Source: Rhodopirellula sp. P2
GTDB lineage: Bacteria; Planctomycetota; Planctomycetia; Pirellulales; Pirellulaceae
Assembly (NCBI RefSeq): GCF_028768465.1
Contig: NZ_CP118225.1
Location: 2,957,001-3,021,000, forward strand
Reading direction: 5' to 3'
Length of the DNA: 64,000 nucleotides
The notes beneath the pieces were generated by a model, which saw nothing but the letters and a program-made list of their open reading frames with translations, made no database searches and was not told the origin of the DNA. The position numbers and the translations under genes were made by a program. Every line of letters starts with the position of its first letter. The first letter of the stretch is position 1. Below are positions 48,670-50,745 of the stretch, one piece after another.

Positions 48670-48764
48670 GGTGGCGACCCTTGCGACTGTGAGTCGTGAA
48701 CCTGGTCAGGCCTTAACTGGAGCAGCCATAAGCGGTGTAACTTTGTGTGAGGGTTGCCTCCACC
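48670..48764 (+). ncRNA. ffs: Signal recognition particle RNA (4.5S-type)
   Basis: The small bacterial SRP RNA binds Ffh and directs ribosomes making membrane proteins to the membrane. The terminal arms ggtgg and ccacc pair and continue into gaccct/agggtt. The diagnostic symmetric internal loop is present as GGTCAGG on one side and AGCAGCC on the other. The apex between them reads CCTTAACTGG, so the hairpin loop is TAAC or TTAACT rather than the GGAA tetraloop of E. coli. The gene lies just upstream of dnaX, as it does in many bacteria. This RNA also argues against a dnaX start at 48754, which would overlap it. Confidence 0.88.
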
Positions 48765-48822: not shown

Positions 48823-50745
48823 GTGAGCGACGATCATTCTGCAGACGACGGGTCGTACGTCGTTGTTGCAAGACGCTATCGGCCGCGGGATTTCACGCAG
48901 CTGGTCGGTCAAGACCATGTTGCTCGAGCCTTGCAGGGCGCGATTGAAACCTCTCGCGTGGGGCACGCTTACCTGTTCACAGGGGCCCGCGGGGTCGGCA
49001 AAACCAGCACCGCTCGGATTTTTGCGAAGGCCCTGAATCACCCCGACGGTCCGACGGCAAATCCGGACAACGAAAGCGATGTTGCGCAGGCCATCGATTC
49101 GGGCGAAGACGTCGACGTGATTGAAATCGACGGTGCGAGCAACCGTGGGATCGATGAGATTCGGTCGTTGCGAGCCAACGTGGGTGTGCGACCGAGCCGC
49201 TCGCGGTACAAGATTTACATCATCGACGAAGTTCACATGCTGACAGGGGCCGCGTTCAACGCGCTCTTGAAGACGCTGGAAGAGCCGCCCGAGCACGTCA
49301 AATTCATCTTTTGCACGACCGATCCGGAAAAAATTCCGATCACGGTGCTCAGTCGCTGTCAGCGATTCGATTTTGCGCCCGTTGAAAGCGATAAAATCGT
49401 GCAGCGTCTGCGCGAGATTGTCGAAGCCGAAAACAACACGGTGGAAGAGGAAGCGTTGGAGCTGCTGGCACGCCGTGCCGCTGGGTCCATGCGAGACAGT
49501 CAATCGTTGCTCGAACAAGTGCTCAGTTTCAGCGACGGGCATCTCACGGCCGACCATGTGCACACGATGCTGGGGACGGCCGACGATCAACGCCTTCATC
49601 GTTTGGCCGAAGCCATGGCAGCACGAGATGCCGCGGCCGCTCTATCCCAGATTGATGAGGCCATCGCAGAAGGGGTCGACGCAGGTCGGTTGGCGGAGCA
49701 AATGCTTGGCTACTTCCGTGACTTGATGGCGGTTGCCGTCGGCTGCGAAGCCTCTCTGATGCGATACGCCGCTGCATCGATGCACGGTGCGTTGGGCGAG
49801 TTGGCAGGTCGTTGGGGCTTGCAAACGGTGCTCGCAATTGTCGGCTTGGTTGATGAAACGTTGGTTCGAATTCGGCACAGCGTCCACGCTCGGGTGTTGC
49901 TGGAAGCGACGGTGATTCAGGTTTGCCACCTGCCCGATTTGCAGGCCATTTCGGATTTGGCGGCAGCAGCGTCAGGTGCCAGCGGTGGAAAGGGCGGCAG
50001 CGAAAAAAAAAAGCGGCCCCCGGTAGCTAGCTCGGCTCCCGCGGCGGCGCCCGCAGCCCCTCATTCCGGTTCCGCTTCGGATCGTGAGGCGGCAAATGTT
50101 CGTGTCGATTCTGCGTCGGAACCCGCTGCTGCTCATCAAGCGACGGCCAGTTCGGCGCAATCAGTTGCTCCAGCAACGGCTACGTCCAGTTCCTCGCCCC
50201 CAGCGTCACCATCCTCCGCGCCCGTCGCCCAAGCCTCGTCCCCCACCGGATCGAGTCAATCACCTGCTGTGCCCCCGGCAACTGCTGGGGCGGAGTCATC
50301 CGGTGAGCGAGCTGCATCGACCACCTCAACGGATGATTACCCGCTGATTTCCAGTGAGGAAGCCAAGTCCGGTTGGTCGCAGGTGCTTCAGGAAATGGAT
50401 CCGATGACCGCGACCTTGGCCAAAGCAGCCGAGCGGGTGGATTCACCCGAGCCCGGCGTCCTTCGGTTGGTTTTTCCAGGGAGCTCTGGGTTGGCACTGA
50501 GTCGGTGCCAGATGCCGGAGCACAAAGAGGAAATTCTTCGAACCGTTGCCCGGGTGACTGGTCGGCGTGCTACCTTGCAATTCGAAGCGACCGCGGTGAA
50601 AAAGGCTGAGCCGGTTGCGGCCGCGAAACCAAAGAATCGAAATCGGATGCAGCGAATGCGCGAGATCCAGGCCAACCCCTTGGTTCAATCCTGCGTCGAA
50701 TTGCTGGGCGCGGAAATCGTTCGCGTCGACACCCCTCGCGGTTGA
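48823..50745 (+). CDS. dnaX: DNA polymerase III subunit gamma/tau
   Basis: This is the ATPase of the clamp loader, which places the sliding clamp on DNA and, as tau, holds the polymerases together. I chose the GTG start at 48823 (VSDDHSADDGSYVVVARRYR), since the upstream TTG start would overlap the SRP RNA. The AAA+ motifs are GARGVGKTSTARIFAKAL (Walker A), IYIIDEVHMLTGAAFNALLK (Walker B), FCTTDPEKIPITVLSRCQRF (SRC). The zinc-finger cysteines are absent between Walker A and B. After about residue 395 comes a Ser/Ala/Pro-rich linker and a C-terminal domain of about 120 residues. A run of ten A precedes the linker and probably yields a short gamma form. The full form has 640 residues. Confidence 0.95.
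   Translation: MSDDHSADDGSYVVVARRYRPRDFTQLVGQDHVARALQGAIETSRVGHAYLFTGARGVGKTSTARIFAKALNHPDGPTANPDNESDVAQAIDSGEDVDVIEIDGASNRGIDEIRSLRANVGVRPSRSRYKIYIIDEVHMLTGAAFNALLKTLEEPPEHVKFIFCTTDPEKIPITVLSRCQRFDFAPVESDKIVQRLREIVEAENNTVEEEALELLARRAAGSMRDSQSLLEQVLSFSDGHLTADHVHTMLGTADDQRLHRLAEAMAARDAAAALSQIDEAIAEGVDAGRLAEQMLGYFRDLMAVAVGCEASLMRYAAASMHGALGELAGRWGLQTVLAIVGLVDETLVRIRHSVHARVLLEATVIQVCHLPDLQAISDLAAAASGASGGKGGSEKKKRPPVASSAPAAAPAAPHSGSASDREAANVRVDSASEPAAAHQATASSAQSVAPATATSSSSPPASPSSAPVAQASSPTGSSQSPAVPPATAGAESSGERAASTTSTDDYPLISSEEAKSGWSQVLQEMDPMTATLAKAAERVDSPEPGVLRLVFPGSSGLALSRCQMPEHKEEILRTVARVTGRRATLQFEATAVKKAEPVAAAKPKNRNRMQRMREIQANPLVQSCVELLGAEIVRVDTPRG
50003..50030 (+). other. dnaX: dnaX A10 slippage site with stops in both alternative frames
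   Basis: Ten A residues (50003-50012) are followed by G. In the -1 frame the next codons are GCG GCC CCC GGT AGC and TAG (50028-50030). In the +1 frame they are AGC GGC CCC CGG and TAG (50024-50026). Either slip would give a protein of about 400 residues that keeps the AAA+ clamp-loader domains. Ribosomal or transcriptional slippage in dnaX is known in E. coli and Thermus. Confidence 0.8.

Follow-up and report, generated by a model that had tools for sequence, protein, structure and literature searches.

A conserved run of A's followed by stop codons in both alternative frames suggests a programmed transcriptional slippage site in dnaX of Rhodopirellula and other planctomycetes

In E. coli, dnaX yields gamma beside tau through a -1 ribosomal frameshift on A_AAA_AAG, which is assisted by an SD-like motif and a hairpin acting as stimulators. 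The dnaX gene of Rhodopirellula sp. P2 carries a run of ten A's past its clamp-loader part, and the question that this locus raises is whether the run serves to make gamma as well and, if so, whether the shift would occur on the ribosome or during transcription. The gene lies in a 64-kb stretch of DNA (GCF_028768465.1, NZ_CP118225.1, positions 2,957,001-3,021,000 of the forward strand), hereafter the window, to which the positions given for dnaX refer.

The dnaX gene, encoding the clamp-loader subunit tau/gamma, occupies positions 48823..50745 on the + strand. In the profile search it scored 440.6 bits with TIGR02397 (cut-off 250) and it contains the domains PF13177, PF22608 and PF12169; downstream come a ybaB-like gene (below its own cut-off), recR and rpoN. 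The start is likely the GTG at 48823 and not the mechanically listed TTG at 48754; counted from this GTG, tau is predicted to have 640 aa and a mass of 67.7 kDa. The candidate slippage run, A10, extends from 50003 to 50012 (+ strand) and is read in the frame GAA AAA AAA AAG CGG CCC CCG GTA GCT AGC. It includes, at 50007..50013, the heptamer A_AAA_AAG in the frame needed for an E. coli-type -1 ribosomal shift. Two TAG codons on the same strand follow: that of the +1 frame (50024..50026) begins at the 12th base past the run and that of the -1 frame (50028..50030) at the 16th. The zero frame, i.e. the unshifted ORF of full-length tau, continues for 243 codons beyond the run up to the TGA at 50743-50745. 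Some 20 residues separate the run from the last Pfam clamp-loader domain, whose final residue is number 397 of the longest ORF. Thus the layout given in the original prediction, with stops 12 and 16 bases on, a zero frame open for some 240 codons and a site at the end of the clamp-loader part, agrees with what we found.

We consider it probable that this A10 is a programmed transcriptional slippage site which provides gamma beside tau. RNA polymerase would add or drop A's on the run and so generate a mixed population of dnaX mRNAs. Those with ten A's, or with a number differing from ten by a multiple of three, would be translated into tau; the other mRNAs would bring the ribosome to either of the stops close by and so yield gamma, a clamp-loader ATPase devoid of the C-terminal part of tau. 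According to the translation, this tau-only part (50014..50745, + strand) consists of a linker rich in Pro, Ala and Ser and of a C-terminal domain. The TAG of the +1 frame would be used by mRNAs with one A fewer (predicted gamma of 400 aa) or two more (401 aa), and that of the -1 frame by mRNAs with one extra A (402 aa); the predicted masses, counted from the same GTG, are 43.1-43.3 kDa, and the predicted gamma C-termini end in SGPR or AAPGS. We infer slippage itself, its efficiency, the production of gamma and the role of gamma from sequence comparison.

The comparison covered dnaX matches in 13/13 genomes of the genus, 221/241 of the family and 385/397 sampled from the class. We read 162 loci of the class, the best-scoring ones and then about one per genus, the presence of a run being no criterion in this choice; one locus (L055) stops at a contig end and was left out. 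A run of A8-A11 past the clamp-loader part is present in 138 of the 161 untruncated loci (82 A10, 54 A9, one A11 and one A8) and absent from 23. By group, it is found in 13/13 loci of the genus (11 A10 and 2 A9), 91/95 of the family, 112/123 of the order and 26/38 of the other orders of the class, and it occurs in one or more loci of 90 of the 112 sampled genera. The original prediction had named, as an outcome that would speak against it, that close relatives lack the run, and every genome of the genus has kept the run. Besides the picked runs, the 162 ORFs (288,507 bases) contain 11 runs of seven or more A's or T's, none longer than 8. The presence of the run is only modestly clustered on the tree: it requires at least 16 changes on a FastTree tree (161 loci, unrooted), compared with a mean of 21.9 and a minimum of 19 in 60 shuffles. 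Repeated loss or gain is therefore likely, the tree leaving the direction unpolarised.

We then looked at the stops. Among the 134 runs that are in frame, a stop occurs within 30 nt in the +1 frame in 123 cases, in the -1 frame in 128 and in both in 117, at a median distance of 8 nt (+1) and 9 nt (-1); the remaining 17 lack one or both, which, like the 23 loci devoid of a run and the modest clustering on the tree, speaks against a programmed site. Elsewhere in these genes both stops follow 7.5% of 19,905 positions; where a locus has no run, the figure is 1.1% of 1,541 positions. When the synonymous codons after the run were re-drawn according to each gene's own usage, both stops were obtained in 16.7 +/- 3.2 of the 134 genes, vs 117 observed. 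Kinship inflates locus counts, but the figure per genus is close all the same: with one locus per genus both stops are present in 74/89 (P of about 7e-68 on the 7.5% null, a value that ignores the remaining kinship). In the genus itself, both stops lie within 30 nt in 11/11 runs that are in frame. The idea that the pair of stops reflects selection is thus supported by the strong enrichment in both wrong frames, and the broader claim of a slippage site making gamma, whose type had been left open, gains support from a comparison that leans towards transcription.

Within the window the run by itself is unremarkable: 50 of 100 dinucleotide shuffles of the 64 kb had at least as many A8 matches. Runs of A10 or T10 number only two in the whole 7.29 Mb genome, the dnaX run being one. 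As an origin of the run, chance is ruled out by conservation and not by these shuffles; the run and its stops being conserved together across relatives makes it untenable.

The features that vary among relatives bear on the mechanism. Run length and the stop pair persist, whereas position, codon phase and the next base drift. In the 138 loci the position of the run ranges from 14 nt ahead of the reference point to 167 nt past it, the phases 0, 1 and 2 are all found, and the base that follows is C in 65, G in 63 and T in 10. A quick unrooted tree requires 19 or more changes of phase (shuffled mean 41.7). Taken together with the stops, the sequences fit Thermus-type transcriptional slippage better than E. 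coli-type ribosomal frameshifting.

An alternative that we regard as unlikely is that gamma is made by programmed -1 ribosomal frameshifting on A_AAA_AAG or A_AAA_AAA in the manner of E. coli dnaX, the +1 stop being incidental. It draws support from the enrichment of -1 stops after the run and from the heptamers: A_AAA_AAG is in frame in 42/138 runs, that of the window included, and A_AAA_AAA in 138/138. The drift in phase might be taken as a proof against ribosomal shifting, but this argument is weakened by the presence of A_AAA_AAA in frame in every run, so that phase is in principle no bar to a ribosomal shift. For a -1 shift, the -1 stop alone would suffice, yet the +1 stops are as strongly enriched as the -1 stops. 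The stop pair is found in 37/42 runs with A_AAA_AAG in frame and in 80/92 where this heptamer is out of frame or absent. Likewise, A9-A10 is maintained although A7 would be enough for the ribosome. The stimulators known from E. coli are not seen on average in the 138 loci: an SD-like motif upstream of the run occurs in 2, vs 5.8 expected from control windows, and a downstream stem-loop is not apparent from folding (mean z -0.02, 6/138 below -2; z 0.97 in the window). Upstream of the run the mean folding z is -0.16, with 11/138 below -2 (mononucleotide shuffles). The host genome encodes tRNA-Lys with both UUU and CUU anticodons, and the CUU one also counts against a ribosomal shift. Finally, passages of PMC5009743 describe A_AAA_AAA as far less shift-prone than A_AAA_AAG in E. 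coli.

Ribosomes might also slide in either direction on the poly-A codons of a homogeneous mRNA and terminate at either stop. Excerpts from PMC4363877 do report that consecutive AAA codons lead to out-of-frame termination, and both stops would be usable. However, the same excerpts report that in E. coli extracts sliding is robust on A11 and gives little product with A9 or A10, and 136 of our 138 runs are A9 or A10. We therefore hold this explanation to be very unlikely.

Transcriptional slippage also has to be weighed against changes of the DNA itself. The run could be a phase-variation tract by which tau is switched off in subpopulations, as homopolymers mutate and in 4/138 loci the DNA itself has the run out of frame (L005, L010, L062, L099). 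But 134/138 are in frame, and the loss of tau should, we infer, be lethal. Moreover, the genome that carries L005 (G004) also has an A9 where its genus mates have A10 in a second gene, a polyketide synthase considered below; short runs in both genes point to homopolymer error, and an assembly error is likely for L005. The other three out-of-frame runs may be assembly errors or real. Altogether we find phase variation highly improbable.

Hardly credible, in our view, is the last alternative, according to which gamma has no function, a pair of Lys is conserved in the linker and the stops serve only to cut accidental errors short. Every run does encode at least two Lys, and early out-of-frame stops would limit waste. 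But Lys elsewhere in these genes is encoded by AAG more often than by AAA (1370 vs 1114), so that KK could avoid a run; and KK or KKK in the linker occurs 138 times at the run, which follows from the way runs were selected, and 6 times elsewhere.

Slippage in dnaX is of a known kind, and comparison strongly supports the planctomycete case as a putative member of it. The nearest model is Thermus thermophilus. As described in parts of PMC1088944, PMC5009743 and PMC4320859, its dnaX has an A9, an unshifted tau ORF and a stop in each wrong frame, with two gamma forms as products, and according to sections of the first two of these papers slippage is efficient at nine A's. The same gene, the unshifted tau ORF, the A run, the stops in both wrong frames and the two tRNA-Lys are common to both organisms, and Atkins et al. 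suggest, in a passage of PMC5009743, that the two tRNA-Lys of Thermus may bear on its use of slippage. The planctomycete case differs by its A10 (mostly A9 or A10 in relatives), by the phylum, by the drift of run position and phase within the class and by being known from sequence alone. It also differs in that no translational frameshift signature was found on average in our loci, whereas Thermus dnaX is said, in a passage of PMC4320859, to bear one too; even the model case may thus be mixed.

Compared with E. coli dnaX, the would-be outcome of gamma plus tau is the same and A_AAA_AAG is in frame in the window. Here, however, the stimulators are not seen, both wrong frames are stopped and a run of 9-10 is kept. 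A third comparison is provided by GeneTack, for which portions of PMC3711429 list two-ORF dnaX genes with 7-10 A's, A10 in nine of 17, and propose slippage. These genes share a poly-A run in dnaX with ours, but there tau needs the shift and here tau would be the unshifted product; the same portions name relatives among the Chlorobi and no planctomycete dnaX. In our searches of the open-licence PMC literature we found no description of slippage in dnaX of Rhodopirellula or other planctomycetes.

Baranov et al. 2005 state, in excerpts from PMC1088944, that slippage of the truncation type is hard to assess comparatively and that a run of nine conserved among homologs very likely indicates purposeful slippage. 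The both-frame stops suggest a way to recognise truncation-type slippage from sequence. They may also bear on gamma, whose importance to cells is called controversial in a section of PMC5009743: a gamma switch kept in most sampled genera in spite of its wandering position and phase would amount to evolutionary evidence of selection for gamma, and the drifting sites would offer many natural replicates for testing it.

We extended the comparison to the other planctomycete classes, in which 60 loci were read (L176 and L225 are incomplete), the search of the phylum having given matches in 288/294 genomes. An A9 or A10 is present in 12 of these 60 dnaX loci. In nine the run is near the same place and both stops lie within 44 nt (L185, L189, L190, L191, L197, L200, L201, L217, L218); L173 and L186 have an A9/A10 without a close stop pair, and L222, from an AT-rich genome, has close stops but a run located 521 nt further on. 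A distinct design appears in another planctomycete family, represented by four loci (L195, L196, L219, L220). Their dnaX has an A7, the zero frame meets a stop within about 25 nt, the -1 frame is open for 476-539 nt, and the two loci that were folded both show strong hairpins (z -3.8 and -3.4). In these four a ribosomal frameshift that gives tau is probable, and this frameshift-like design in the phylum counts in favor of the ribosomal alternative for the window.

A survey of named loci, taken as the best 80 of 586, shows that A9/A10 located beyond the clamp-loader part and followed by both stops within 30 nt is also found outside the planctomycetes, for example in Ignavibacteria (L318, L321, L322, L335), Verrucomicrobia (L324), Terriglobia (L307) and Omnitrophota (L282). 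The G+C of five of the seven is 0.31-0.41, and single cases are weak there. Among the same best 80 of 586, four loci are possible two-ORF dnaX genes with A9 or A10 (L270, L319, L323, L326), in assemblies of Thermoguttaceae, another planctomycete, Opitutales and Myxococcales; their zero frame closes early and a different frame stays open for 285-789 nt. These may reflect slippage or a homopolymer error.

The second A10 of the genome lies at G000:C1:774954-774963, on the - strand, in a gene for a PfaA-like polyketide synthase (L032/L377), directly after the ACP domains. The match to TIGR02813 is 127.9 bits, far below the cut-off of 1010. Stops in the wrong frames come 8 and 21 nt after the run. 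A search of 198 genomes of the family gave matches in 24. The 18 best (E up to 3e-56), ten from the genus and eight from three other genera, all have a run there (16 A10, one A11 and one A9); the run is missing from the 6 weaker ones (E 6e-42 or worse). Two of the 18 runs, in G004 (the A9) and in G210, are out of frame, and each of the 16 others is followed within 30 nt by a stop in both wrong frames. Thus both A10 runs of this genome lie inside long genes with a slip-and-stop design, which speaks for the slippage reading of dnaX. In our searches of the open-licence PMC literature we found no description of slippage in a polyketide synthase.

From these two genes we are inclined to think, with less assurance than for dnaX, that Pirellulaceae have a general slip-and-stop device, A9-A11 with stops in both frames, by which at least two unrelated proteins, DnaX and the PfaA-like polyketide synthase, would each be made in a truncated and a full-length form. 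If so, the polyketide synthase would be cut just after its ACP domains, the both-frame stops would constitute a comparative signature of truncation-type transcriptional slippage, and the second site suggests a use beyond replication.

There are 14 exact A9/T9 runs in the genome. Nine of them lie next to a stem of 8 or more pairs and resemble intrinsic terminators (L390, L391, L393, L394, L397, L398, L400, L401, L403); since the dnaX run itself adjoins an interrupted antisense stem (-16.0 kcal/mol), the test for antisense terminators is rough. Three others (L392, L395, L399) cross no open stretch longer than 651 nt, and two are located at ORF junctions. At one junction (L402; G000:C1 6371543-6371551, - strand) the A9 is near the start of a 473-aa ORF, without a Pfam match and transposase-like by eye only, and another short frame ends there. 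At the other (L396, also L438; G000:C1 4064858-4064866, - strand) a ThuA ORF (PF06283) ends right after the A9 and is followed by a frame with NPCBM and DUF7133 domains. The sister genome G007 has an A10 at this site, and in five further genomes of the genus a single long ORF is found here; the arrangement may reflect a gene fission or a fusion made by slippage.
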